DNA of 34,090 bases, taken from a virus. The notes under the pieces are model-generated. The model ran no database searches. It was not told the origin of the DNA and saw only the letters and a program-made list of their open reading frames with translations. The stretch covers positions 1-34,090 of IMG/VR virus record IMGVR_UViG_3300009420_000042. One strand, 5' to 3'. Of this stretch, positions 7,976 through 34,090 are shown one piece after another (positions within the stretch are counted from its first letter, which is position 1; each line of letters begins with the position of its first letter). A program made the position numbers and the translations under genes.

Positions 7976-9034
7976 ATGAGTATAGATAAGAATATTTTAA
8001 AATGCTTCGATAAACTAGATAAACTCAACCCAGAAGCTAAGCTTCTATCTGAGTCGTCACTAAGCACTGTTACAGAGTGGCATGATACCGGTTGTATGGT
8101 TTTGAACGCGATCATCTCAGGTAGTCTGTATGGAGGTCTCCCCATGGGTCGAATCACAGGTTTCGCTGGTCCGAGTCAAGCTGGTAAGACATACATAACC
8201 AATAAAATCTTAGCAAAAGCACAACAAGCAGGTATCATGCCGGTTATATTTGACACAGAGATGGCTGTTGATGAAGCTGCATGCAGAGCAGTAGGTCTTG
8301 ATCCAACAAAAGTTAAATACGTTCCAGTTCAGACAGTTGAGGAATGCCGGAACCAATTAGTTTCATTCCTTGATAGTGTTCATGAAGCTAAGATGCACGG
8401 TAAGTTCATAGTGTGTATAGACAGTCTTGGTAACTTGGCTAGCCAGAAGGAAATAGATGACGTAGAGAAAGGTAAGACAGCTATGGATATGGGCACTAGA
8501 GCAAAAGGTCTGAAGAGTATGATGAGAACTCTCACATTCAAAGCCGCAAAAGCAAATGTAACTGTTTTGTTTGTAAATCATACATATGATGACCCTGGTG
8601 CAATGTTCCCGACTCTAGTGAAGAGTCAGAGCGGTGGTAAGGGTCCGGTATATTTATCAAGTGTGTTAGTTCAGTTGGCAAAAAGAGACGAGAAGAAGGA
8701 TGTCAATAATTCTAATGATGAGATACTACCCGAAGCAAATAAATACAGTGGAGTTACACTCCGAGCTCTCACTATTAAGAATAGATTTATACCTCCGTTC
8801 CTCGAAGGTGAGATGTATTTAAATTTTAAAACTGGGCTGGATATGTATAGCGGACTGAGAGAGATGGCTATAAATCACGGTGTTATCATACAAAACGGAT
8901 CTACATACACTCTACCTAATGGTGAAAAACTAGGGTATTATAAGAACTGGAGTAAGGATAAGGCTCTATGGGATGAGCATATATTACCACCTCTAGAGGA
9001 GAAGTTGAAAGCTACCTTTAAGTATGGTGATTAA
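7976..9034 (+). CDS. uvsX: RecA-like recombinase UvsX
   Basis: Strand-exchange recombinase acting with gp32 and gp46/47 in recombination-dependent replication, 352 aa (T4: 391). Walker A is GPSQAGKT (65-72), the catalytic glutamate lies in FDTEMAVD (E95), Walker B is FIVCIDSLGN (144-153, D149), and the DNA-binding L2 region is around SQSGGKGPVYLSS (217-229). The C-terminal KNRFIPPF is typical of phage UvsX. It has its own promoter and almost no leader; there is no Shine-Dalgarno. The stop codon overlaps the stop of the minus-strand gene 9031-9207 in the palindrome TTAA. Confidence 0.95.
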   Translation: MSIDKNILKCFDKLDKLNPEAKLLSESSLSTVTEWHDTGCMVLNAIISGSLYGGLPMGRITGFAGPSQAGKTYITNKILAKAQQAGIMPVIFDTEMAVDEAACRAVGLDPTKVKYVPVQTVEECRNQLVSFLDSVHEAKMHGKFIVCIDSLGNLASQKEIDDVEKGKTAMDMGTRAKGLKSMMRTLTFKAAKANVTVLFVNHTYDDPGAMFPTLVKSQSGGKGPVYLSSVLVQLAKRDEKKDVNNSNDEILPEANKYSGVTLRALTIKNRFIPPFLEGEMYLNFKTGLDMYSGLREMAINHGVIIQNGSTYTLPNGEKLGYYKNWSKDKALWDEHILPPLEEKLKATFKYGD

Positions 9035-17022: not shown

Positions 17023-17385
17023 ATGAAAAACAAAATATCAACACAAGGTTACTTCAACAAGCGATTAAAAGATAACGGTTATATAATATGGAGAATATTC
17101 GATAAGTATAGCATCGGAGACCATAGAAAATGGACCATACTGTTAAATCCTGGATACCATTCAGTTTATATTACATGCATCGTTAATATGGAATCTGTAA
17201 ACGATACTCCTGTATTTATGTTTGATGATGGTGGTGTGTATATCAGACGTGATTTGAAGATCAAGACTGACAGGATAGAGGATATACTCACACATCTAAT
17301 TGAGAGTGGTATCACAGCGGATGCAGATGATTATCGTAAGATAGAGTTAGAGCAAGAATTTAATGTTTCTCGTGATGACCGATAA
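17023..17385 (+). CDS. Conserved small protein after gp45, unknown
   Basis: 120 aa. Begins MKNKISTQGYFNKRLKDNGY and continues with DHRKWTILLNPGYHSVYITC, DGGVYIRRDLKIKTDRIEDI and an acidic C-terminus. I recall very similar proteins (S-Q-G-Y-F-x-K-R-L-K-x-x-G-Y, then W-T-I-x-x-x-P) beside gp45 in marine T4-likes, where the function is not known. The layout suggests a small alpha/beta fold. Start follows the clamp stop by 1 nt; the 3' end overlaps the next gene. Confidence 0.75.
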   Translation: MKNKISTQGYFNKRLKDNGYIIWRIFDKYSIGDHRKWTILLNPGYHSVYITCIVNMESVNDTPVFMFDDGGVYIRRDLKIKTDRIEDILTHLIESGITADADDYRKIELEQEFNVSRDDR

Positions 17386-17836
17386 AGAAGATGATTATGA
17401 GCCTGAGAAGGTCGTCGGTAAATCACCTGATGAATCAAGTGACATAGAAGAAAATGATGACCTCTTAGATGAGCATTCTGAAGAAGATGAGTCGAGTCTC
17501 TATGGTGTATATGATGAAGATGAGGATATAGAAGATGTATACCGTCGATCACTCAAGCCCGATAAGAAGAACATGCGATCACAATTATTAACAGCAGCAT
17601 TAGAATCACAGATCGTCGAATATCAATCCAAGAGACGTGAGTCATTGAAAACATTAGACGATCTAGCATCTATAATCGAAGAATTTACAGATTCTTTTAT
17701 ATTATTAGGCTACGATTTTAAGGGTAATCCAGTCAACTTAATCTCCGCGCAAACACAACAACAAGCTGATTCTCTAGGCACATTAGTGCATAAATTTTTA
17801 GTGGAGAAGTCCTTGAAAGGTCCAGGTGGTTTATGA
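17375..17836 (+). CDS. Acidic N-terminus, helical C-terminus; unknown
   Basis: 153 aa from ATG 17375 (MTDKEDDYEPEK); a start at 17363 is also open. The first 45 residues are strongly acidic (Asp/Glu/Ser). The rest is helical: KKNMRSQLLTAALESQIVEY and SLKTLDDLASIIEEFTDSFI, followed by a short C-terminal domain with LISAQTQQQADSLGTLVHKF. I considered small terminase gp16, which has a helical core of similar size, but saw no convincing match. It overlaps the previous gene by 11 nt and the reductase gene as ATGA. Confidence 0.65.
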   Translation: MTDKEDDYEPEKVVGKSPDESSDIEENDDLLDEHSEEDESSLYGVYDEDEDIEDVYRRSLKPDKKNMRSQLLTAALESQIVEYQSKRRESLKTLDDLASIIEEFTDSFILLGYDFKGNPVNLISAQTQQQADSLGTLVHKFLVEKSLKGPGGL

Positions 17837-18750
17837 GTAATATATTAATTCTAGGAAATGGTTTCATTGGATCTAAAATCAATCAAAAACTAACACAATC
17901 ACTTGACAAGTCACATACAGTTCAGATAATATCTCAGAGTGATATGGATTATACTAACGTATGCAATCTACTATCTGATGATATAATGGCACCTGATATC
18001 ATTATCAATGCATGTGGGTATACCGGAAAGCCGAATGTTGATGCTTGTGAGGATAATCGATCTGAGTGCTGGAGACTGAACACAGTATTTCCAGTCAATC
18101 TTCATGAGTTCTGTAAAGCAACCGGTGTGTTGTTAATTCATGTATCTAGCGGTTGTATATACAATGGATATGATAAGGTGTATACTGAGGAAGATGAATC
18201 AAACTTCGGTTTATATGATGATGTGAGCAGCTTCTATAGTAAGTCTAAGCACGCTGCAGAGATCTTAATGGATACATCGTCATCGCTAGTGCTATTCCGC
18301 ATTCGAATTCCATTTACATGTGATAGTACATCTAGAAATTATCTCAATAAATTGCTAGGGTATGATAATATCATATCAATGGATAATAGTATCACATGTG
18401 TCGAGGAGTTCACTTCAATGATATATAAGATGATTGAATCTGGTGACATTTATAATATACCTGCCGGTATATACAATGCTGTCAACCCTGAACCGGTAAC
18501 CGCTAGTACAATTACAGACATCTTAGTTGATCATGGATTACATAACGATAACTGGAGCATAGTAGAACTTTCAGCGTTAGATATAAAAGCCAATAGAAGT
18601 AATTGCATTTTATCAGATGATAAGCTATCATCTATAGGATATAGATTCGACCCTACACTCGAATCGTTGATCAATACAATCAAAAAATTATCTACTGATG
18701 TTCAGCTTCGTAAAAAATATTCTAAAAAAGAAGGTTCACAAACCTCATGA
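17833..18750 (+). CDS. NAD(P)-dependent sugar-nucleotide reductase (RmlD-like SDR)
   Basis: 305 aa extended short-chain dehydrogenase. The Rossmann loop is ILGNGFIGSK (about 4-13, G-x-G-x-x-G), then DIIINACGYTGKPNVDACE (about 55-73), the active-site strand HVSSGCIYNG (about 102-111) and YSKSKHAAE (Y-x-x-x-K, about 136-144). These match RmlD/WcaG-like enzymes acting on NDP-sugars such as dTDP-4-dehydrorhamnose. It may feed the phage glycosyltransferases or remodel host surface sugars; no synthase for its substrate is in the window. The C-terminus is Lys/Ser-rich and overlaps the next gene by 53 nt in another frame. Confidence 0.8.
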   Translation: MSNILILGNGFIGSKINQKLTQSLDKSHTVQIISQSDMDYTNVCNLLSDDIMAPDIIINACGYTGKPNVDACEDNRSECWRLNTVFPVNLHEFCKATGVLLIHVSSGCIYNGYDKVYTEEDESNFGLYDDVSSFYSKSKHAAEILMDTSSSLVLFRIRIPFTCDSTSRNYLNKLLGYDNIISMDNSITCVEEFTSMIYKMIESGDIYNIPAGIYNAVNPEPVTASTITDILVDHGLHNDNWSIVELSALDIKANRSNCILSDDKLSSIGYRFDPTLESLINTIKKLSTDVQLRKKYSKKEGSQTS

Positions 18751-19842: not shown

Positions 19843-20852
19843 ACATACCGCAGACGTACGTCGTCGAGAAGTTCTATCAATTCGCTGGTTATCCGAGATA
19901 TAAAAAATCTAGTAATACATACGAAGGAGGTTGTAGTATATGTAAGGAAGGTTCTTCATGGGGTCGTAAGAGACGTTTATATTACATGCCAGATAAGTCA
20001 GCGATATGTTGTCATAATTGCGGTTGGTATGGAAGTGCATGGAGATGGGTATCAGAAGTCGCGCACTTATCCTATGACGAGATACGAAGTGAGATAACTG
20101 CAAACGAATTCAACTTAATTGACATCAAGTCATTATCAGTAAATAACTCTCAACTTGAGAAATCGAGTGAACCGCTACCTAAAGACAGTATAAATCTATC
20201 ATCTCCACAACAGGTTGAATATTATAAAGATGATCAGATGGTGACCAAGGCTGTTAGATATATCAATTCACGAAGATTAAACAAAGCAGTAAATAGACCA
20301 CCTAGTATGTATATAAGTTTGACAGATTTTGTGCATAAGAATAGACTATGCATACCATCTACAAATAGCGATCATAGTGTGTCATATTATCAGACACGAT
20401 CACTACTAGATGATGGCTCACCCAAATACCTCTCTAAACAATACGCAGAACGTGATGTATATGGAATCAGTGGAATTACAGACATATATCCAAATGTATA
20501 TATATTCGAAGGACCTCTTGATTCATTTTTTGTAGATAACTCTGTAGCTATATACGGTATACAAGAGAAGAGTAAGCAATCACTGACTGTAGCTCAGCAT
20601 GAAGCTCTATCTAACTTATTCTACATGAATAAGGTGTGGGTATTAGACAATCAGCATATAGATAATGCCAGTAGAGAGAAATCTAAGCTATTACTAGACC
20701 GAGGAGAGAGTGTGTTTATATGGCCTCGAAGTCTTACTGAATTTAAAGATTTTAATGAACTGTGCATGCATCATAGATTAAACGAAATCTCGCATAAGTT
20801 CATAGACAGTAATGTATATACTGGCTCAGATGCAAAGCTGAAGCTGATTTAA
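19839..20852 (+). CDS. 61: DNA primase gp61
   Basis: Makes RNA primers on the helicase gp41. 337 aa (T4: 342). An N-terminal zinc ribbon has CSIC (32-35) and CHNC (58-61). The TOPRIM-like core has IFEGPLDSFF (222-231, E224) and VWVLDNQHID (266-275, D270), then FKDFNEL. Start overlaps the RNase H stop (ATGA). The stop codon TAA overlaps head-on with the stop of the minus-strand gene 20849-21289 in TTAA, the same arrangement as after uvsX. Confidence 0.92.
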   Translation: MNIPQTYVVEKFYQFAGYPRYKKSSNTYEGGCSICKEGSSWGRKRRLYYMPDKSAICCHNCGWYGSAWRWVSEVAHLSYDEIRSEITANEFNLIDIKSLSVNNSQLEKSSEPLPKDSINLSSPQQVEYYKDDQMVTKAVRYINSRRLNKAVNRPPSMYISLTDFVHKNRLCIPSTNSDHSVSYYQTRSLLDDGSPKYLSKQYAERDVYGISGITDIYPNVYIFEGPLDSFFVDNSVAIYGIQEKSKQSLTVAQHEALSNLFYMNKVWVLDNQHIDNASREKSKLLLDRGESVFIWPRSLTEFKDFNELCMHHRLNEISHKFIDSNVYTGSDAKLKLI

Positions 20853-21289
20853 ATTGTATCTTTTTGACTAGTCTTGCTCTGAGCAGTGAGTAGATATTGC
20901 TTTAACGATTCCCCTAAGCTTGATAAATCTTGGGCAATCCTAGATATCTTCTTAGATTCACTCCTAGCTACATCAGATAATATCGAACCACAATCTGTTT
21001 GATTGAGCTGAGCGTTCATTGAATCTGGAGTCAATCCATTTAACTGCTCTATAAAACTCTCAACATTATTAACCCAGTTGGTTAATATCTCAGTAGTCTG
21101 AGCGGTTTGATGAGCTTCAAAATCTGCAACTGGGTTTGTTGGTACATCATAATCACCAGGTGATGTGCCATCATCTAGATCCGCAGCAAAGGCTTGACGA
21201 TCTGCCTCCTGCTCTTCACCAGTGGATGTTGAATCAATATCATCATCCTCGCACAACATCTTAAGAAATTTACCTTGAAAGTTACTCAT
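20849..21289 (-). CDS. Acidic late protein with L-C-E N-terminal motif
   Basis: 146 aa from ATG 21289. The frame is open upstream to 21367, but the late box TATAAATA sits 8 nt before 21289, and the upstream extension runs through it and the next gene. N-terminus MSNFQGKFLKMLCEDDD: a short amphipathic helix ending in L-C-E at 12-14, aligning residue for residue with the 23765-24097 product (MDKFQNKFYRALTESDG). L-x-E is the cleavage signal of the T4 prohead protease, so this could be an internal head protein; that is inference. The next 60 residues are acidic (ADLDDGTSPGDYDVPTNPVA), and the C-terminal half is helical. Stop shared head-on with primase. Confidence 0.72.
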   Translation of the reverse strand: MSNFQGKFLKMLCEDDDIDSTSTGEEQEADRQAFAADLDDGTSPGDYDVPTNPVADFEAHQTAQTTEILTNWVNNVESFIEQLNGLTPDSMNAQLNQTDCGSILSDVARSESKKISRIAQDLSSLGESLKQYLLTAQSKTSQKDTI

Positions 21290-21297
21290 GTTATAAT

Positions 21298-21322
21298 TAT
21301 TTATACTTCTACCGCCTAAATA
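21298..21322. promoter_or_regulatory. Divergent pair of late promoters
   Basis: Minus strand: perfect TATAAATA (21298-21305), 8 nt before ATG 21289. Plus strand: CTAAATA (21316-21322), 11 nt before ATG 21334. Predicted leaders are about 3 and 6 nt. The two genes start 44 nt apart. Confidence 0.7.
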
Positions 21323-21333
21323 ATAATATAGAT

Positions 21334-21711
21334 ATGAGAAAAAAACAAATACATGAGAATTTGACATCAGGTGGAGGTCAACAATTATACGGAGGTTCGG
21401 ATGGTCCGAAGAGAGTAAATCTGATGGATGTCTTGAAATTTCAGGACTACCTACAAGACCAGCTTACCAAAGCCCCGAAAGTTCTTCCAGCTCCAATGTC
21501 TCACAATATGCTAGATAACATAGCGGATGTTTTTGTTAAGATAAACGACATTCAATCTGAGCTTATGCATGTATTGCAGAATCCACTAGTAGTGGATAAT
21601 GATGATGTGGTTAAGACGTTGAAGACCATGTATAAGAAATTTTCTAAAATGAAACTTATGATAAAATCTCTATCACACGACCTAGAAGACCTTGATATCT
21701 CTAAAGACTGA
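21334..21711 (+). CDS. Small late protein, helical, unknown
   Basis: 125 aa. N-terminus MRKKQIHENLTSGGGQQLYG is Gly-rich and flexible; the rest (VNLMDVLKFQDYLQDQLTKA; then LDNIADVFVKINDIQSELMH and TMYKKFSKMKLMIKSLSHDL) is helical with heptad-like spacing, so a coiled-coil or bundle is likely. It is transcribed from a late promoter divergent to the minus gene 20849-21289. No family recognised. Confidence 0.7.
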   Translation: MRKKQIHENLTSGGGQQLYGGSDGPKRVNLMDVLKFQDYLQDQLTKAPKVLPAPMSHNMLDNIADVFVKINDIQSELMHVLQNPLVVDNDDVVKTLKTMYKKFSKMKLMIKSLSHDLEDLDISKD

Positions 21712-21712
21712 C

Positions 21713-21720
21713 TCTAAATA
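21713..21720 (+). promoter_or_regulatory. Late promoter TCTAAATA
   Basis: TCTAAATA, 8 nt, then the GTG start at 21729; predicted leader about 3 nt. It overlaps the end of the previous gene region (stop 21711). Confidence 0.6.
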
Positions 21721-21728
21721 ACTATAGA

Positions 21729-22163
21729 GTGAGTAGTTTTAAATCTATAGTTACATTATTGAGTATAAGTATATTGGCTTCTGCGCTCGCAGCTGTCAAC
21801 GGAAACGACTACGTGTATATATTCTACATGACGCTCATATTCCAACTAATTCTTGGCTTCACTGTATCATCAATCCGGAATCCTATTCTTCAACTTAGAG
21901 CTGAAGCTATTGAGAATGAGAGGATACAATCATTCTCCCAACAAGGAGTTGACCTAAAGTGCGCGCATTGCGGTAGTATATCGATAGTACCGGTTGTGTT
22001 AGATGAGAAAAATGAATATGATTGCCCTAGTTGTGATAATAGTAACTCACTATACATCAATATCACTGTGGCTAGGAAGACCAACATGTTGAATATGCAA
22101 CATCTTGTAACTTCATCAATTGATGATGAGAGTACTACAATCGATACCATCCGGAATGAGTAA
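21729..22163 (+). CDS. Membrane protein with zinc ribbon, unknown
   Basis: 144 aa, GTG start. Two adjacent hydrophobic segments (FKSIVTLLSISILASALAAV, about 4-23, and YIFYMTLIFQLILGFTV, about 30-46) form a likely transmembrane hairpin. A cytoplasmic zinc ribbon follows: CAHCGS (about 78-83) and CPSCDNS (about 98-104). The remaining tail is polar. Membrane-anchored zinc ribbons are uncommon among T4-like late genes; a role at the host membrane, or in head assembly, which starts at the membrane in T4, is possible but not shown. The GTG start is supported by the late box. Confidence 0.7.
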   Translation: MSSFKSIVTLLSISILASALAAVNGNDYVYIFYMTLIFQLILGFTVSSIRNPILQLRAEAIENERIQSFSQQGVDLKCAHCGSISIVPVVLDEKNEYDCPSCDNSNSLYINITVARKTNMLNMQHLVTSSIDDESTTIDTIRNE

Positions 22164-22617
22164 CATAATCAACCACAACTCAGACGATATAACCAAACCA
22201 GCATCCGATATATCACCTATTAAATCTCAAGATAGTATCAACAGTGATGACTTATTAGCTATAGTAGAAAAATACTTTATACTATCCGATTCAGATCAAC
22301 GTCAGGCATACGCCGCAGGTAAATCTGATATCATCAGAGATGAGTTCGACATCCATCACTTTATCAACAGTATACACTCTATACTACAAACACACTGCAA
22401 GGATCAAGCTAAAGACAAACACGTCAGTATATCAATCACAAAAATCTTCAAAGGGTTTGAAAACTTAAACGATATCCTTGGTTCATTAAATAGTACGCAT
22501 TCAGCGGATCATTTAGTTGTATTGAGGTTGTTAAGTTATTGCCTTTATTCATATTTTAAGTATAATCAATCATATGATAGACATAAACAAATACAAGCAC
22601 AAGTCAATCGCAATTAA
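22156..22617 (+). CDS. Unknown helical protein
   Basis: 153 aa from ATG 22156 (MSNIINHNSDDITKP). An upstream ATG at 22120 is open but would give a 44-nt overlap; 22156 overlaps the previous stop by 8 nt. The N-terminal 40 residues are polar and disordered-looking. The rest is helical: LLAIVEKYFILSDSDQRQAY, HHFINSIHSILQTHCKDQAK, HLVVLRLLSYCLYSYFKYN. No domain recognised. It lies in the plus-strand late cluster. Confidence 0.6.
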   Translation: MSNIINHNSDDITKPASDISPIKSQDSINSDDLLAIVEKYFILSDSDQRQAYAAGKSDIIRDEFDIHHFINSIHSILQTHCKDQAKDKHVSISITKIFKGFENLNDILGSLNSTHSADHLVVLRLLSYCLYSYFKYNQSYDRHKQIQAQVNRN

Positions 22618-22831
22618 AGCCGACTCTAGAGGAGTAGATGAGATGTCATATTATGAGCTATCTAGGTGGTTGTGTTTAATCGAGGCAATAGAGTATATCG
22701 GTCGAAAATGTGAGCATATAGGTCTACCTGATACAGATGGTTCGTGGGTAAAGCCTATAGCTATCCAGAAGTATGTAGATGAGAGAACAGAGAGTATGTT
22801 ATTCGAGGTAACTAACCAAGGCACCATATAA
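22574..22831 (+). CDS. Small unknown protein
   Basis: 85 aa, MIDINKYKHKSIAIKADSRG... with a helical middle (SYYELSRWLCLIEAIEYIGR) and a segment LPDTDGSWVKPIAIQKYVDE. It overlaps the previous gene by 44 nt; a later in-frame Met at about residue 24 (DEMSYYEL) would remove that overlap. Its stop overlaps the next ATG by one base, supporting it as a translated member of the cluster. Confidence 0.6.
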   Translation: MIDINKYKHKSIAIKADSRGVDEMSYYELSRWLCLIEAIEYIGRKCEHIGLPDTDGSWVKPIAIQKYVDERTESMLFEVTNQGTI

Positions 22832-23136
22832 TGCACTACATCATTGGAACACAAGTATTGATACAGGACTCTAGAGTTAAGTTTAAACCTGGAGCGACCT
22901 CAGGGTCCCGGGTGAGACCAGTGATCTCTGACTTTAAGCCAGGTGTAAGATACACTTTATATCATATACGTAAAGATGAGGATGATAAGATTCGATATGT
23001 ATTTATATCAGATGATCAAACAGATGTCGTTGGATTGAAGTTTGACTCACCTAGTGATGCTGATAAAATGATATCATCAATCAAGGGTGACACTTTACCT
23101 GATTATAAGGATATATACTCTAGGAATTCATCCTAG
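22831..23136 (+). CDS. Small beta-rich protein, unknown
   Basis: 101 aa. MHYIIGTQVLIQDSRVKFKP, then DFKPGVRYTLYHIRKDEDDK, YVFISDDQTDVVGLKFDSPS: alternating strands with an F-K-P-G-x-x-Y-T-L turn suggest a small SH3-like barrel. It is the last plus-strand gene of this cluster. Its stop TAG shares the palindrome CTAG head-on with the stop of the minus-strand neck-like gene. Confidence 0.65.
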   Translation: MHYIIGTQVLIQDSRVKFKPGATSGSRVRPVISDFKPGVRYTLYHIRKDEDDKIRYVFISDDQTDVVGLKFDSPSDADKMISSIKGDTLPDYKDIYSRNSS

Positions 23137-23768
23137 ACATAACCACCATACACATCATCATTTCCAGAATCAGTATAATCAAATATACCGATTGACTCTT
23201 CTCTGACATTATCTTCAACCTGCTGACTCACACTCTCACGCGGTATACCAGGTTCAAAACTATAATCATGTCGTTTAGCTTTAATTAACCATATATAGTG
23301 GCCTGTGAGTTGATTTATTTGTTGTACATCTTGATCGATTCTCTCTGTAATTTCAAAATGATTACCAGATCTACCTCCTGGTCGACCTTCACCAAATTCA
23401 CTCAAATCAAAAACGTCACCAGCCTTAGGCTCGCTACTCTCACCAAATGAATCGTAGAATTGTTGTATGTGGATGAAGCATGTCACCTCATCATCAGAAA
23501 CTAAACCAAACTTTTGCATGACTACTGCGTTCTCATTTAAGTTTAATGTTACTATCAACTTCACACCATCCTTAAAACCAGATTCAGGTTCCTCACCATA
23601 TACACTATCTGCAGTATCGAGTGATGTTTTGTTAACATAATATGTAATCTCAGATCCATATATATTAATCTGTTCACGCCACCAGTCATCATAATTACTC
23701 CGCTCACATGCACTGATATCTTTATTGAGAAACCTCACTGGATCGTTACTGAATGGAGAGGCGCTCAT
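23133..23768 (-). CDS. 14: Probable neck protein (gp14-like)
   Basis: 211 aa (T4 gp14: 256). Features that match T4-like neck proteins: WWREQINIYGSEITYYVNKT (about 29-48), a central KFGLVSDDEVTCFIHIQQF segment, KAGDVFDLSEFG (about 114-125), then HFEITERID and a C-terminal KAKRHDYSFEPGI. In gp14 the pattern is IYG-x-D-V-x-Y, ..KFGL..D, P-x-x-G-D, FEI..V. gp14 closes the portal-head end and joins the tail. It is on the minus strand, away from gp13 and gp15. It starts in ATGA overlap with the gene before it and shares a stop palindrome with 22831-23136. No late box stands directly before it, so it uses the upstream gene's transcript. Confidence 0.6.
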   Translation of the reverse strand: MSASPFSNDPVRFLNKDISACERSNYDDWWREQINIYGSEITYYVNKTSLDTADSVYGEEPESGFKDGVKLIVTLNLNENAVVMQKFGLVSDDEVTCFIHIQQFYDSFGESSEPKAGDVFDLSEFGEGRPGGRSGNHFEITERIDQDVQQINQLTGHYIWLIKAKRHDYSFEPGIPRESVSQQVEDNVREESIGIFDYTDSGNDDVYGGYV

Positions 23769-24097
23769 GAATGTAAAGTGTATGTACCAACCATACTCCG
23801 AGTGATGATCATCTTAGTATTACCTAGATTCTTACTCTCGCCTCTCTGCAATGAACTTATATGATACCTTCTCATTATATCCTCAACGTCAACTACACTT
23901 AGTGGTCTTGTATTACCGGTAGATCTGACATTCTCAACTTTATTATTTAAGTCAGGTCTAGCTCGATGAATCTCTGGAACCTGTCTCATATTCTTCCGAT
24001 CATTCCCTCTCGCACCTAACCTCACGTAAGGTGGTAACTTAGCTAAACCATCACTCTCTGTCAAAGCTCTATAAAATTTATTTTGAAACTTATCCAC
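23765..24097 (-). CDS. Late protein with L-T-E N-terminal motif
   Basis: 110 aa, GTG start at 24097. N-terminus MDKFQNKFYRALTESDG matches the 20849-21289 product at M1, F4, Q5, K7, F8, L12 and E14, and places the L-x-E cleavage-like motif at the same position (12-14). The remainder is basic (about 18 Arg/Lys) and polar: LPPYVRLGARGNDRKNMRQV, then HISSLQRGESKNLGN. A basic protein with a capsid-targeting leader would fit a DNA-binding internal head protein. ATTAAGTA sits 5 nt before the GTG. It is co-transcribed with the neck-like gene (ATGA overlap). Confidence 0.68.
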   Translation of the reverse strand: MDKFQNKFYRALTESDGLAKLPPYVRLGARGNDRKNMRQVPEIHRARPDLNNKVENVRSTGNTRPLSVVDVEDIMRRYHISSLQRGESKNLGNTKMIITRSMVGTYTLHS

Positions 24098-24102
24098 TCA
24101 AT

Positions 24103-24110
24103 TACTTAAT
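24103..24110 (-). promoter_or_regulatory. Late-type box ATTAAGTA
   Basis: On the minus strand ATTAAGTA, 5 nt, then GTG at 24097: the predicted start is the G of the start codon. It differs from TATAAATA at three positions, so it is weaker than the others. Confidence 0.45.
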
Positions 24111-24124
24111 CGTCTCAGTTCATA

Positions 24125-24157
24125 AAAAAACCTTAGACTCTACACCTAAGGTTTTTT
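24125..24157. terminator. Bidirectional rho-independent terminator
   Basis: AAAAAACCTTAG, 9-nt loop, CTAAGGTTTTTT: a perfect 12-bp stem with an A-tract on one side and a T-tract on the other. It ends minus-strand transcription from the gene 24179-24949 and separates it from 23765-24097. Confidence 0.9.
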
Positions 24158-24178
24158 AATTAAATTATTTGTATGATA

Positions 24179-24721
24179 CTACGATAGTAGACCTTGATTA
24201 TTACCGGTAATTTTACCAGTTACAACATTTGATCGACCTCCAGTCGCTGTCATCTTAGCTGTTGTGTCAGCAAGATCTCCATCATTTCCGACTTTATCCA
24301 TCACCTTGCCTGTAGCACCGCCTGAAGTTACCTTACTAGCGTGACCTCTGACAACGTTTTTCTTCTTAGGTCCTAATTGTGTTGGATCTACTCCTGGACT
24401 CGTTCCATCTGAAGTATGCTGAGCTTCAACTGCCTCTGGAAAAGGATCTTCTTCTCCTTCTTCATCTGAACCTAACATGTCTCCATCATCTAAGTCTTCA
24501 ATTTCTGATCCTGTACCGTCAATTTGACTCAATACATCTCTCAGTACATCAGCTTGATCTGATGATAACGTGATTGTAATTTCTTCACCGCTTTCTTCAC
24601 CTTCAAAATCATCAACTGGTTCGTCTTCTATACCCATCTCGAATGAGTCAACATCGAAATCGTCACCAGCTTCCATAATCGTCGAGTAAAGCTTGTCGAA
24701 AATGTTCTCTTTTTTATCCAT
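24179..24721 (-). CDS. Probable nested short form of the acidic late protein
   Basis: In-frame internal start at ATG 24721 giving 180 aa. The evidence is on the DNA: a perfect late promoter TATAAATA stands exactly 5 nt before this ATG, inside the coding sequence of the long form. Its N-terminus, MDKKENIFDKLYSTIMEAGD, has Phe at residue 8 like MSNFQGKF and MDKFQNKF and an I-M-E motif at 15-17, so it resembles an independent capsid-targeting leader. It shares the terminator with the long form. The promoter at this start is a better late-box match than that of the long form, so the short form may be the main product. Confidence 0.55.
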   Translation of the reverse strand: MDKKENIFDKLYSTIMEAGDDFDVDSFEMGIEDEPVDDFEGEESGEEITITLSSDQADVLRDVLSQIDGTGSEIEDLDDGDMLGSDEEGEEDPFPEAVEAQHTSDGTSPGVDPTQLGPKKKNVVRGHASKVTSGGATGKVMDKVGNDGDLADTTAKMTATGGRSNVVTGKITGNNQGLLS

Positions 24722-24949
24722 ACTAGTATTTATATGGCTCTTTTGAATTTTCACTGTTTCTGGAGATTCTTTTATATCTTCTATCTTTTTCTCCACACCA
24801 TCTACACCAGGTCCATCACCCTTAATTTCATCCTTCTTAACATCTTTCTCTAGTTCAAATGTGTCTACATTATCACTCTCGTTTAAAATATCAGTGTATA
24901 CATCTTCAAGTTCTTTGATGTGTCGTGTTAGATTTCTAGATTGTTTCAC
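24179..24949 (-). CDS. Acidic late protein, long form
   Basis: 256 aa, GTG start at 24949. The N-terminal 76 residues begin MKQSRNLTRHIKELEDVYTD and contain ILNESD, an L-x-E motif at 22-24, then Lys/Glu-rich sequence. From Met77 the protein repeats the pattern of a new N-terminus (MDKKENIFDKLYSTIMEAGD). The middle is very acidic, with EEITITLSSDQADVLRDVL (about 123-141) a likely folded segment. The C-terminal 60 residues are Gly/Lys-rich (GGATGKVMDKVGNDGDL, GGRSNVVTGKITGNNQG). The N-terminal L/I-x-E motifs fit prohead protease processing. A late box TATAAGTA lies 5 nt before the GTG. Ends at a strong terminator. Family not recognised with certainty. Confidence 0.7.
   Translation of the reverse strand: MKQSRNLTRHIKELEDVYTDILNESDNVDTFELEKDVKKDEIKGDGPGVDGVEKKIEDIKESPETVKIQKSHINTSMDKKENIFDKLYSTIMEAGDDFDVDSFEMGIEDEPVDDFEGEESGEEITITLSSDQADVLRDVLSQIDGTGSEIEDLDDGDMLGSDEEGEEDPFPEAVEAQHTSDGTSPGVDPTQLGPKKKNVVRGHASKVTSGGATGKVMDKVGNDGDLADTTAKMTATGGRSNVVTGKITGNNQGLLS
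24727..24734 (-). promoter_or_regulatory. Internal late promoter TATAAATA
   Basis: Perfect 8-of-8 T4 late consensus on the minus strand, 5 nt before the in-frame ATG 24721. Predicted first base is the A of that ATG. Confidence 0.7.
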
Positions 24950-24950
24950 G

Positions 24951-24962
24951 TAAATACTTATA
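24951..24962. promoter_or_regulatory. Overlapping divergent late promoters
   Basis: The 12-mer TAAATACTTATA reads TAAATA on the plus strand (15 nt before the terminase GTG 24972) and TATAAGTA on the minus strand (5 nt before the GTG 24949). The two genes start only 22 nt apart. Confidence 0.65.
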
Positions 24963-24971
24963 GAAAAAATC

Positions 24972-26657
24972 GTGAAAACAAAGGACTTAAGCCAAAAATT
25001 TTATCTAGGTAACCAAAATCTACCTACTGATCAAGCTAAATTTGAGTATACAGCCGAGATGGTTTCGGAGCTCAAGAAGACTAAGAAAAACCTTCTTTAC
25101 TTTGCAGAAAATTTCTTTTTCATAGTAAACCTAGATACTGGTAGACAGACAATATCCTTACATAAATGCCAGAAGCGTGCTCTTAGAAACATGAGAGATA
25201 ATAGATTTGTCATCATGTTAGCATCCCGGCAATGTGGTAAGACTACGATGATGACTATATATGCTCTATGGAATGCATGCTTTAATGATGATCAACGTGT
25301 ATTGATAGTAGCTAATAAAGAAGGTACAGCTATAGAGATATTCCAGAGAATCAGGCTAGCGTATGAAGAATTACCCAATTGGATCAAACCCGGAGTTAAG
25401 GAATACGGAAAAACCAGCATGTCATTAGCGAACGGAAGTAAGATAGGTATCAGCACTACAACAGGCACAGCAGCCAGAGGTCAATCCGTCAACTGCTTGA
25501 TATTAGATGAGCTAGCATTCATTGAACCTCATATGGTTGAACCTTTCTGGAATTCAGTATATCCTATAATATCATCATCAAAAAAATCTAAAATATTTGT
25601 AGCCTCTACACCCAACGGTACAGCAAATCTATTTTACAAAATTTATAATGGTGCGATCGCGAACGACAACGGTTGGTCTCCAGAAAGAATAGACTGGTGG
25701 GAGGTTCCTGGTCGTGATGAAGTATGGAAATATGAAACAATAAGAACAATCGGATCAGAAGAAGTATTTCGTCAGGAGTTTGGTAATGAGTTCCTAGAGA
25801 CTGGTGAGAGTGTAGTTGATGAAGTGTTACTCGAGAAATTATTAATCCACAACAAACCACCGATGCATGTATTGGATGAAGGAGACTATCTTATATGGGA
25901 GAATCCAGATCAAGACAACACATACGCAATCGGAGTGGATGTAGGAGAGGGTGTAGACAGAGCAGCGTCAGTCGCACAAATCCTAGATATAACAGATCTA
26001 ACAAACATAAAACAAGTCGCTATATATCATAGTAACAAGATCAGTCCATATAACTTCACTGCTAAGCTATATGATATATTATGTCACTGGGGGTCACCAT
26101 TAGCATTAATTGAGAGAAATAACTGCGGAGCTCAAGTTGTTGACAGTCTCAAGAATCATCATAATTATGAGAATATTGTGACATACACCCCAAATCTTAA
26201 GAAGATTGATCACAATCGACCTGGTGTACTGGCGCATACTAATACCAAGTATAAGGGTGTGATGAATATGAGATATTGGATCAATCAACTTAATGTTGTA
26301 CAACTTAGAGATATAAACACTGTTAATGAGATTAAAAACTTCATCAGACTACCCAACGGAACATGGAAGTCACGACCTGGTAAGGATATGTGGGACGATA
26401 GAGTGATGTCATTAATATGGGCATTGATGATACTAGAGACAACATTGACTGAACGATATTTCGAGATAGAGCAATATGATGATAACGGTAAACCTTTAAT
26501 CATCCGAAGTTTATATGAAGGCTTTGAGCAGTTCATGAATCCTCTGCCTGTATCAGACGATATTGGTAGTGCAGCTCTACCTATATCTTTTGGTGGTTAT
26601 GACACTGGTGCTGATATATCAGAATTAGAATCTATGGGTTGGCATACACCTGAGTAA
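24972..26657 (+). CDS. 17: Large terminase subunit gp17
   Basis: DNA-packaging motor ATPase and headful nuclease, 561 aa (T4: 610). ATPase: Walker A SRQCGKT (85-91), Walker B CLILDE (175-180, D179 E180), coupling motif STPNG (212-216). Nuclease, RNase H fold: GVDVGEG (321-327, D323), LIERNN (379-384, E381), MWDDRVM (473-479). GTG start at 24972, supported by a late box and by the typical N-terminus. It is shorter than T4 at the N-terminus. The small terminase gp16 was not identified in the window. First gene of the plus-strand structural run. Confidence 0.95.
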   Translation: MKTKDLSQKFYLGNQNLPTDQAKFEYTAEMVSELKKTKKNLLYFAENFFFIVNLDTGRQTISLHKCQKRALRNMRDNRFVIMLASRQCGKTTMMTIYALWNACFNDDQRVLIVANKEGTAIEIFQRIRLAYEELPNWIKPGVKEYGKTSMSLANGSKIGISTTTGTAARGQSVNCLILDELAFIEPHMVEPFWNSVYPIISSSKKSKIFVASTPNGTANLFYKIYNGAIANDNGWSPERIDWWEVPGRDEVWKYETIRTIGSEEVFRQEFGNEFLETGESVVDEVLLEKLLIHNKPPMHVLDEGDYLIWENPDQDNTYAIGVDVGEGVDRAASVAQILDITDLTNIKQVAIYHSNKISPYNFTAKLYDILCHWGSPLALIERNNCGAQVVDSLKNHHNYENIVTYTPNLKKIDHNRPGVLAHTNTKYKGVMNMRYWINQLNVVQLRDINTVNEIKNFIRLPNGTWKSRPGKDMWDDRVMSLIWALMILETTLTERYFEIEQYDDNGKPLIIRSLYEGFEQFMNPLPVSDDIGSAALPISFGGYDTGADISELESMGWHTPE

Positions 26658-27339: not shown

Positions 27340-29858
27340 ATGGCACGTACAATACAATCACCCGGAGTCGAGATCAACGAGATTGATCTCTCATTAAGAC
27401 CAAGTTTACCTATAGGTACTAATATACTAGTACCTGGATTTGCTAATCAGGGACCTGTAGACGAAGTTTTACAAGTGACTAGTATATCTGAGTTCGAACA
27501 ACTTTACGGTCTACCTACTAACGCCGCTGAGAGATACTTTTACCATACAGTAAAGGCATCATTCAACAGCCCAGCAAACGTATATGTTACTAGATTACCA
27601 TATGGTGAGAATGAAGGTGAGACGGTGGGAGACGAATATACAGCACTATGCTACCCTGGATATACTAGACCATCTCTCGAAACATTAGAGTCATGGGTAT
27701 CGAGCGATACACCTACTTTATCAGCAGCTGGAGCTGCTTGGACTGAACATGGTTCAACTGTTTATAGTGATCCAGATGCAGTTGAGGTTATATTTGCAGC
27801 TCATCAAGCTTCTGCAACCAAGTATACTGACAGTGATTTATATTTACTAGGTGAACCAAAACACGTAACACTGACACAATCTGAGTATGATTCTCTCACC
27901 AACAACGAAGTTCAGTGGTCTGATAAACCTGGTACAGTTACTTCTTCTGGTATCACAGCAATACAGAATTCTGCTCTTGTCGTACTCAACAGTAGTCGAC
28001 GAGCGATCAACGAAAAATTTGAAGGTTATTATGTAGCATTATCTGATAACACAAACCTAAACCCCGCTACAGATTTTGACAGCGTTCGAGAGTTAAGATC
28101 TATCAACAAGAATACAACCACTGGTAGTACAGTTAAAATTCCAAGTGAAAGACTGACGTTCAATATTGAAGGAGATTCAAATGATAGTAACGTTTCCATA
28201 TCTGAAGTGGTTGAGAACCTAGGTGATTACGACATGAATTCAGTAGAGTTCAGTGATGTATTAACACTAGCTGTTTTTAAGATCCGGCAATCAACATTGA
28301 ATCCTGATGTAGCAAAATTAGACTATGTACTATCAGAGTCATATATAGGTTCATTGTCGTATCATCGTGAAAAATTTGGACAAACTGGAGGCAAAGCAGA
28401 ATCATTCTTTATAGAGAGTATATCTGATTCATCTCCTAATGTAACAGTAATAGTCAATCCTAATATAAGCAAGAGCACTGGTTCGTGGTTGGGTGATGAC
28501 GCTTTACCTGAGAGAAGAGTTCGTATTCTATCTAAGAAGCATCAAGATTATCTAGGTGTAGTTGATCCGTCGGAGCCTAATGGCGCGTTTCTAAACAGAG
28601 CTGAAGAAGCTGACTTAGGTCAATGGATATACAAGATTAACACTGCTGGTTTAAATTTAAATACTGGTGATAAAGTATTTCCACATGGTGTATTCAAGAA
28701 AGCTGAAGCGGCCGCTAAGAATATAGGAGCTATTCCAACTAAACTGGAGTATATTTTCGAGACAATAGACAACCATGAGTTATATCCACTGGATATAACC
28801 TGTGAAGCTGGTCTTGGTACTATATTTGTAGGTTCACATGGAGGTAGAAGATCGTTTGATGATGAAGCCTACTTTGAAGTCGGAGATGGATTAGGTACAG
28901 AAGAGAATGGATATGTAGCTGGAGAACCTGGTTATGATGATTTCAAAGAACCATCAAACCCAGATGGTCAGTGGGGTTATGATAATCTCTACACTCCAAG
29001 AGTGCTTGAGAATAAGAAAAGAACTCTAGTCAACTACAACAACGTAGCTAACGTATTCGTAAATTTTGCTCAGAACAAGAGAAAAGATCACATGACGATA
29101 TTAGATCCTATCAGATATCTATTCGTGCAAGGTCAAAATAATAAAACTCTAGGCAACAAGAATCATATATTTTCAAAACATGTATATTGGCCCGTCCGAC
29201 ATAACTACGAGGCTATAAATACTAGCTACGCAGCCACATACGGTAACTGGGCTCGAGTATTCGACGGTCAGTTGGGTCGTAATATATATGTACCATTCTC
29301 AGGCAGGATGGCTGCATGTTATGCAAGAACTGACGCACAATATCAACCATGGTACGCACCAGCTGGGTTCACAAGAGGTACTCTTAGTACAGTTGCTGAT
29401 ATAGCAGTATATCCTAAACAGAAGCATAGAGATCAATTATATAAAATAAGTGTCAATCCTATCGCAAATTTCCCTAATGATGGTTTTGTTGTATTTGGAC
29501 AAAAAACATTACAATCAAAGCCAAGTGCATTCGACCGAGTCAATGTGCGTAGGTTGTTTCTATACTTAGAGAAAGCAGTCCGTGCTACTGTTAAGTATTA
29601 TGTATTTGAACCAAATACGTTATTCACTCGAACACAAGTAGTGAATGTATTACCCCGATATTCGAGAAGGTTAAGAATACAGAAGGTATGTATGACTATC
29701 TTATAGTATGTGATGAAAGAAACAATACACCATTTGTAATCGATCAGAATGAAATGGTGATCGACATATATATTAAGCCGGTTCGTGCTGCTGAATTTAT
29801 ACTATGTAACTTTTACGCAACAAGAACTGATCAAAATTTCTCGGAATTAGTATCTTAA
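27340..29858 (+). CDS. 18: Tail sheath protein gp18, frame broken near the 3' end
   Basis: Contractile sheath subunit. The main frame (27340-29706, 788 aa) has the typical N-terminus, SPGVEINEIDLSLRPS, then VPGFANQGPVDEV, and the C-terminal core VYWPVRHNYEAINTSYAATY...FEPNTLFTRTQVVNVL, after which it diverges into RYSRRLRIQKVCMTIL and a stop. In the -1 frame the expected gp18 end continues without break: PIFEKVKNTEGMYDYLIVCD, then NNTPFVIDQNEMVIDIYIKP, ending FYATRTDQNFSELVS, with a TAA at 29856-29858. The switch lies near the C4 run at 29653-29656; one extra base there restores about 839 aa. Longer than T4 (659), with extra domains in the middle. Either a sequencing or assembly error, a mutation, or recoding. 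Confidence 0.93.
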
Positions 29859-33195: not shown

Positions 33196-34090
33196 ATGCT
33201 AAATATAGAGCAAACAGATCAATTGATCCGGGACATGTCAACGTACGTTGACAAGACTGCTGACTCCGTGACATATGGTGAGATGGTACAGATCGTGAGT
33301 GCTTACGTTGCACCTGATGATGATTATAGATCAGTAGATGATGATCAGTATAAATCTGTTCACGTGAATGATATTAGCGATATATCAATGTCACGCTTAT
33401 CAAAGTATATAAAAACATCTAAGAAGGCTAAGAATGTCAAGCCTGAGGTTGATACACCTAAGAAATCTAATTCAAAGAATCCAGATTTATCTCTCATCGC
33501 ATCAGCATTAAAATTTGCTTTACCTATGCTACCGATACTAGCTCTTTCATTACCGTTAACTTCCGGGTTGGGAGCACTTTATGGTGGAGCAACTGCCGGG
33601 TTACTGTCATTAATTGATGATGCAATCATCAGTAAACGAAAATTGACAGAGGACCAGAAACGTCGACAGAAGAAAGCGCGTGATGCAAAACAGAAGAGGT
33701 TGAAAAGAGACAAGGCAAAAAGAGTTGCAGAATCTAAAGCTAAAAAAGCTAAAAAAGCTCAAACCGCAAAAGCCAAAGCTGAAGCGAAGGCAAAAGCCAA
33801 AGCGGATGCAAAAGCCAAAGCTGATGCGAAAAAAGCTCAAAATGCCAAGGAAAAAGCTGAAGCGAAGAAAGCCAAAGCTGATGCGAAGGCAAAGGCTGAA
33901 GCGAAAAAAGCTCAAACTGCCAAGGAAAAAGCTGAAGCGAAGAAAGCCAAAGCTGATGCGAAGGCAAAAGCTGATGCGAAGGCAAAAGCTGATGCAAAAG
34001 CAAAAGCTGATGCGAAAAATGCTGATGCGAAAAAACCCAAGAGTCCTCCGAAACCTACAGCACCAAAACCTAAAACTCCACCTCTTAAAC
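33196..34090 (+). CDS. Ala/Lys-repeat tail-region protein, 3' truncated by the window
   Basis: The frame from ATG 33196 stays open to the end of the window (298 codons, no stop). N-terminus MLNIEQTDQLIRDMSTYVDK, polar to about residue 95, then one hydrophobic segment FALPMLPILALSLPLTSGLG followed by ALYGGATAGLLSLI (about 108-142). From about residue 150 it is basic, and from about 175 to 278 it is an Ala/Lys/Glu/Asp repeat (AKAKADAKAKADAKKAQ), then Pro/Lys-rich (KPKSPPKPTAPKPKTPP). A long charged helix plus a membrane-like segment resembles TolA-type or tape-measure proteins. Position after the baseplate genes favours a virion protein, perhaps one that reaches the host envelope. Function is open. 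Confidence 0.75.
   Translation, partial: MLNIEQTDQLIRDMSTYVDKTADSVTYGEMVQIVSAYVAPDDDYRSVDDDQYKSVHVNDISDISMSRLSKYIKTSKKAKNVKPEVDTPKKSNSKNPDLSLIASALKFALPMLPILALSLPLTSGLGALYGGATAGLLSLIDDAIISKRKLTEDQKRRQKKARDAKQKRLKRDKAKRVAESKAKKAKKAQTAKAKAEAKAKAKADAKAKADAKKAQNAKEKAEAKKAKADAKAKAEAKKAQTAKEKAEAKKAKADAKAKADAKAKADAKAKADAKNADAKKPKSPPKPTAPKPKTPPLK
33829..33978 (+). repeat. 75-nt tandem repeat, two copies, in frame
   Basis: Copies at 33829-33903 and 33904-33978 encode KKAQ(N/T)AKEKAEAKKAKADA and then KAKAEA or KAKADA. They differ at only a few bases. Shorter 18-nt units (AAGGCAAAAGCTGATGCG) continue to about 34015, and degenerate units precede from about 33736. Confidence 0.85.

Follow-up and report, generated by a model that had tools for sequence, protein, structure and literature searches.

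Why do late genes that are otherwise unlike each other, in a single T4-like phage, begin with a similar short peptide? The question is raised by positions 20849-24949 of IMG/VR record IMGVR_UViG_3300009420_000042, a 34,090-base record of a T4-like phage that was analysed over its whole length (the window). Three genes of its minus strand, called A, B and C here, had been read in an initial annotation as carrying candidate N-terminal leaders that end in L-x-E and would address the proteins to the capsid. In T4, a conserved capsid-targeting sequence (CTS) stands on very different cargoes; the proteins that bear it enter the core together with gp22, and gp21 cleaves them after L/I-x-E (PMC9026906, PMC3012670). 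Arguing by analogy with that system, we conclude that the shared N-terminus is probably a T4-type capsid-targeting propeptide cut by gp21, and give this reading a probability of roughly 0.7.

Leaders of families A, B and C

Gene A (20849..21289, minus strand) encodes an acidic protein of 146 amino acids (aa), with an isoelectric point (pI) of 4.1, in which the leader is followed by a variable acidic linker and a conserved helical C-terminal domain. Gene B (23765..24097, minus strand) starts with a GTG at 24097 and encodes a basic protein (110 aa, pI 10.4). The long form of C (24179..24949, minus strand) starts with a GTG at 24949 and is very acidic (256 aa, pI 4.2), and a short form (24179..24721, minus strand; 180 aa) starts at an internal ATG at 24721. 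The description of one basic and two very acidic products is borne out by these values.

The A leader MSNFQGKFLKMLCE (21248..21289, minus strand) and the B leader MDKFQNKFYRALTE (24056..24097, minus strand) are found where the initial annotation had placed them. They are identical at residues 1, 4, 5, 7, 8, 12 and 14, and L-x-E occupies residues 12-14 in both, with a predicted cut after E14. The A frame can be extended upstream to 21367, but the ATG at 21289 is favoured by the promoter and by the family members. Ranked by N-terminus, A and B form the best gene pair of the window, with 7/15 identical residues; the runner-up pair has 5/15.

Relatives were collected by a scan with the terminase large subunit (TerL) as anchor, which gave 61 related loci, and by a scan with A, which gave 6 further ones; family members were found by profile searches of the open reading frames (ORFs) of these loci. 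A direct scan with B gave no confirmed relative, and the relatives of B were obtained via TerL synteny. At matching places there are 28 members of A, 36 of B and 41 of C, and all three are conserved syntenic families that adjoin TerL and gp14 in related IMG/VR contigs. As far as sequence goes, it is this conservation that makes the similarity of A and B solid.

Within family A, F4, F8 and L12 are conserved at ≥90% in 26 aligned members. Every member's leader ends in [LIVM]-x-E, with the E mostly at residue 13, 14 or 15; our script counted 27/28, the 28th being that of the window, which was scored at a spurious upstream start. Aromatic residues near positions 4 and 8 are retained in most members of B. 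With a profile made from the A leaders only, we scored 1,135 other N-termini and 3,540 internal decoys. The three top scores among non-A proteins (13.9-21.3 bits) were the B leaders of three related contigs, while the best decoy scored between 6 and 7 bits. The window's own B scored only 2.6, with 5 decoys higher, and what speaks for it is therefore its membership of the family and its direct likeness to the A of the window. When the A and B profiles were compared with hhalign, the 16-residue leader aligned and nothing else did (E 0.0045), in keeping with the earlier remark that the genes are otherwise unlike each other.

Gene C had been noted for ILNESD near its start and for an internal start with a leader of its own, and it has both. 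The long frame reads ILNE/SD near its N-terminus (a slash marks a candidate cut), with L-N-E at residues 22-24 and a candidate site at 24. The internal ATG at 24721 gives MDKKENIFDKLYSTIME, then AG (leader at 24671..24721, minus strand; predicted cut after E17, IME/A). Among the C members with a recognisable internal start, [LIV]xE is present in 32/32 short-form leaders, and a TAAATA box ends 5-11 nt before the internal ATG, within the long frame, in 32/32. This nested gene start is thus conserved, and because the box precedes it in every such member we regard the internal start as well supported. For the long product there is a second late box, and this product frequently has an [LIV]xE as well. 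The short-form leader reads ..IFDKLYSTIME/A in the window's group and MSKSIFDKLYE/D elsewhere, the candidate cut site of most other C members being LYE/D or LYE/E. Its hydrophobic/aromatic pattern is present but shifted (IF..LY).

The starts of all these genes are preceded by T4-late-type promoter boxes, which back the description of them as late genes. Box TATAAATA (21298..21305, minus strand) ends 8 nt before the A start, an arrangement shared by 27/28 scored A members. The B start has a degenerate box, TTAAGTA (24103..24109, minus strand), that ends 5 nt before it, and 26 of the 32 scored B members have TAA[AG]TA at 2-14 nt from their start. In C, a nested TATAAATA box (24727..24734, minus strand) ends 5 nt before the internal start, inside the long frame, and box TATAAGTA (24955..24962, minus strand) lies 5 nt before the long-form GTG at 24949, in the gap between C and the terminase gene.

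No homologue of A, B or C was detected among 50,697 cultured-phage records, and PHROG and tblastn searches with the three gave no useful match. The AlphaFold model of A (predicted local distance difference test, pLDDT, 83) has helices at 53-84 and 103-145, and the predicted structure of B is a small alpha/beta domain; neither model had a PDB match with E below 0.5. The case for A as a relative of gp22 is weak: a weak hmmsearch match to P-SSM2 gp22 (E 1e-4 to 5e-4) was not backed by hhalign against the gp22 family (E 0.03-0.42, non-significant). The C family carries repeats of the L.GK.NKV.GK type in its C-terminal third.

The gp23 cut site and mini-gp23 genes

A comparison of the leaders with the cleavage sites of the phage's own gp21 system had been suggested earlier, and we ran it in relatives. 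Both gp21 and gp23 were found in seven larger related contigs, and in 6/7 of them the N-terminus of gp23 reads ..LLENQE.WC[VIL]NE/[AG]NVAGG.. or nearly so. The same clade holds mini-gp23 genes of 71-96 aa, in which a leader is joined to a copy of gp23's mature N-terminal arm and a lysine/arginine-rich tail. Such genes lie at G001:158657-158881, G006:33131-33367 and G002:166596-166808, and in L181, L184 and L185. The G006 gene had been considered as a gp24-like vertex protein, and this was rejected in favour of a mini-gp23. The junction of leader and arm reads MNLFKSYFVKTINE/DNVAGAGG in G001, ..FNRALLE/DMNVAGG in G006, MITFKQFVMNE/ENVAGDGG in G002 and MNRFEKVFNEVLAE/NNSSGGES in the contig of L038. 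In the contig of L003, which is closely related to the window (70% TerL identity), the junction is MSLYKTIFLHLLDE/DNTAGAGG, with the window's exact Y/F4-F8-L12-E14 spacing. Mini-gp23 leaders also outscore all 3,540 decoys on the A-leader profile.

The architecture recurs in T4 itself, as gp61.1 (NC_000866 18966-19130, minus strand), which reads MKTFKEFIKE/DMVAGDSGG.. and then ..KKKK.., and whose leader is the T4 CTS. It matches residues 57-93 of T4 gp23 with 46% identity over 37 residues (E 5e-8). Gene 61.1 has been listed as a conserved ORF without function (PMC1524935). The equivalent in Klebsiella phage KP17 carries a CTS as well (MKTYKEFVTE/MVAGD), and several other Straboviridae have a longer N-terminal domain in the leader's place that ends in a glutamate at the same position. 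Leader, gp23 arm copy and basic tail are common to gp61.1 and the mini-gp23 proteins of the clade; the T4 protein uses the T4 CTS, whereas those of the clade use leaders of the window type (class I, F-x3-F...[LIV]xE) or T4-like ones. In both, the terminal glutamate sits at the gp23 cleavage position. As the T4 CTS stands in gp61.1 where a window-type leader stands in the mini-gp23 of relatives, the two occupy one slot before the position of gp23 maturation. This gives a first concrete hypothesis for gp61.1: the protein would be located inside the T4 head and would combine a CTS tag, a duplicate of the N-terminal arm of gp23 and a basic tail. Neither these leaders nor the architecture of gp61.1 turned up in the open-access library searched, and their novelty is to that extent provisional.

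Proposed targeting and its alternatives

In the scheme that we favour, A, B and short C would be made late in infection from their own late promoters. The amphipathic leader, with aromatics near residues 4 and 8, would bind the prohead scaffold or core, and the proteins would thereby be built into the prohead. The protease gp21 would then cut after the glutamate of [LIV]-x-E, removing the leader and leaving the mature proteins in the head. Candidate cuts are LCE/D in A, IME/A in short C and, less surely, LTE/S in B. The B leader may often act uncut; targeted-but-uncut B proteins are conceivable because the targeting residues (4, 7) of the T4 IPIII leader are separable from its processing residues (8, 10) (PMC9026906). 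For core binding, cleavage and final location in the window phage, T4 serves as the guide. Injection with the DNA, as first proposed, is one possible fate; roles in the head core, as internal structural proteins or in head completion seem at least as likely, because A, B and C are conserved core genes adjoining packaging and neck genes.

Several features that define the CTS of T4 IPI, IPII, IPIII and Alt recur here. A short, putative N-terminal propeptide stands on unrelated late proteins, as seen for A versus B and for mini-gp23, with [LIV]-x-E before the predicted cut (L/I-x-E at the end of the leader in the window's A, B and C). Its length agrees with the ~10-20 residues of the T4 CTS, at 13-15 in the A family, 14 in the window's B and 17 in its short C. 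Aromatic or hydrophobic residues stand near 4 and 7-8 in A and most B, and are displaced in short C. A gp21-family protease is present in seven related contigs of the clade. The clade differs from T4 in its F-x3-F sequence (13-17 aa in A, B and short C), in placing leaders on conserved core genes and in having several leader types side by side.

Other known systems were compared as well. The T4 core proteins gp22, gp67 and gp68 are likewise acidic late head proteins with gp21 sites, whereas A is not on the gp20-gp23 operon. The internal start of T4 gene 21 (gp21s) and the internal products of gene 17 resemble C in having a second in-frame start and a shorter protein; the internal C start differs from them in its own late-promoter box (32/32) and its own leader. 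In SPN3US and phiKZ, internal head proteins are matured by a prohead protease that cleaves behind a glutamate (PMC5694885); the glutamate site is alike, and those propeptides mostly exceed 100 aa, compared with 13-24 aa here.

How general is the signal? The fixed profile F4-F8-L12-x-E14, offered earlier as a search rule, turned out to be the window's version only, as the E of family A falls mostly at 13-15; it matches 1/221 late and 4/667 other genes, and is on that account too strict. A looser motif, [LIVMF]xE at residues 6-22, is enriched in late genes (86/221 versus 132/667, p 2e-8; shuffles mean 33, maximum 49), as is T4 spacing (7-8-10) followed by a small, acidic or amide residue (18/221 late versus 8/667, p 2e-6; shuffles mean 0.6, maximum 3), with p values that are optimistic because the counts include homologues from related contigs.

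That bias is one of several points that weigh against a capsid-targeting propeptide. The window contig ends before gp21 and gp23, and both were examined in relatives only; the gp23 site of one of these, G006, is not clearly [LIV]xE. Only 17/32 scored B leaders have [LIVM]xE, and 15/32 are without it, a few of these being misplaced starts. Some B lineages clearly do without it, such as L029 (MMTFLEFIKTGVEHRHMK), in whose contig A retains the motif. The A and B leaders showed no significant covariation within genomes (p 0.15 and 0.12). The T4 internal proteins are variable accessory cargo, whereas A, B and C are conserved throughout the clade. Likeness to the T4 sequence MKTYQEFIAE is not seen either: ipIII scores -6.5 on the A profile, and 271/3,540 decoys score as high. 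We do not count this likeness as a defining feature, since ipIII also differs from further T4 propeptides, for example from the gp24 one (MAKINELLRE). Cleavage after L-x-E is predicted for A and short C, which keep the motif throughout, and is uncertain for B. The broader capsid-targeting proposal, partly supported as written, has good comparative support in the leader's presence on unrelated late proteins, in the gp21-type motif, in gp21 and a like gp23 site in the clade, and in the gp61.1 slot.

The chief competitor, which we consider unlikely, is that the N-terminal helix serves for docking during head or neck assembly and usually stays uncut, B working with gp14 at the neck and its [LIV]-x-E being incidental. 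The 4-nt overlap of B with the gp14-like gene, the aromatic N-terminus that is kept in relatives lacking L-x-E, and the standing of A, B and C as core genes all fit such a role. It leaves unexplained why [LIVM]xE is kept throughout A and short C, and why the same leader in mini-gp23 genes ends exactly at the gp23 cleavage position. Much less probable still is a promoter and 5'-end cassette copied between late genes, with the shared residues reflecting recent common origin or a constraint of near-leaderless starts in place of targeting. Dozens of genes do have a late box at 4-7 nt from their start, and promoter and leader could therefore travel together. Yet F4, F8 and [LIV]xE persist over deep divergence while most leader positions vary, the box also precedes many genes whose proteins have no leader peptide, and several leader-bearing genes have no late box.

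Could the A/B match simply be chance similarity between short sequences? In the window alone it is unremarkable once all gene pairs are counted: at 7/15 identity or better, ~0.4 pairs are expected among 703 by chance, judged against random pairs of clade genes, true leaders being part of this background. Taken by itself, the A/B pair is for this reason weak evidence. Conservation in at least 26 contigs, and the failure of all 3,540 decoys to reach the level of three relatives' B leaders, make chance a very improbable explanation. A capsid-targeting propeptide would account for features that are plainly observed, namely the leaders, their conservation, their sharing among unrelated genes, the late boxes and the glutamate aligned with the gp23 site.

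Neighbouring genes, late boxes and further leaders

Several small genes of the plus strand separate A from B, together with the gene for a gp14-like head closure protein, Hc2 (23133..23768, minus strand; phrog_679, E 4e-12), which has no leader. On the other side of C lies TerL (gp17; 24972..26657, plus strand; phrog_2, E 2e-50), with tail genes downstream. Long-form C and the terminase gene have divergent starts, with 22 bp between the start codons and the late box inside this gap. At 27340-29858 the tail sheath gene is split into 788 aa and then 56 aa in another frame, the pieces being consecutive parts of the phrog_23 profile (217-414, then 420-472). Relatives such as L011 have the sheath as a single 896-aa frame, and the split is a sequencing error or a real frameshift. 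The last frame (33200-34090) is cut off by the contig end within a lysine/alanine repeat (KAKADAKAKAEAKK) and is possibly a tail or head structural protein.

Late boxes were surveyed in eight contigs (about 970 kb), with gene starts called without regard to promoters. TAAATA boxes concentrate 4-7 nt upstream of starts (210 boxes), far above other distances. This spacing implies nearly leaderless late messenger RNAs. TATAAATA boxes lie 4-7 nt from the starts of dozens of genes in contigs G001-G004, G006, G009 and G010, and in the window those close to starts are at 21305, 24734, 26679 and 29860. Genes with TAAATA at 3-9 nt number 52 in G001 and 57 in G002, compared with 2 in T4, 5 in P-SSM2, none in Syn9 and 13 in HTVC008M; the close box is rare in T4, Syn9 and P-SSM2, and intermediate in HTVC008M.

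Class I is not the only leader in the clade. A class II leader, MNxDxxLIFE/AY, occurs on roughly twelve proteins whose mature parts for the most part do not group with one another; nine of these proteins are encoded in G002. Its loci include 8086-8949, 17031-17426, 17430-18284, 153363-154241, 168563-169447 and 215102-216833 in G002, and 101373-102239 and 169710-171101 in G001. It is often accompanied by a further L-x-E or V-x-E 7-12 residues on, and its late proteins are unrelated and mostly without known domains. T4-like leaders (MRSYKEFFYE, MVSYRQFIKE, MKTFKQYISE, MKTFRQFLIE) also stand on unrelated cargoes. Most class II and T4-like cargoes gave no confident Pfam domain. The domains found on leader-bearing cargoes are a retropepsin-like Zn_protease (PF05618), a cell wall hydrolase (PF07486), a CTP_transf_like nucleotidyltransferase (PF01467) and DUF6267, to which a weak M15/VanY peptidase match can be added. 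The proteins at G006:28900-29553 and G004:16259-16894 have a T4-like leader and, after it, a nucleotidyltransferase fold motif (PF01467 in G006; in both, GxFxPxHxGH as judged by eye), and are possible capsid-carried nucleotide or NAD enzymes.

We suggest, tentatively and as something that may well prove wrong, that several address codes (class I, class II and T4-like M-K-S-F-K-Q-F) load a large and varied set of proteins into one capsid, including predicted hydrolases, a retropepsin-like protease and a nucleotidyltransferase. Differing codes may address different core partners or different fates, retained in the head or injected. With a recognisable leader, unannotated late genes of uncultured T4-like phages become testable candidates for head proteins, and the leader supplies a sequence rule for finding the proteins that such phages may carry into cells.

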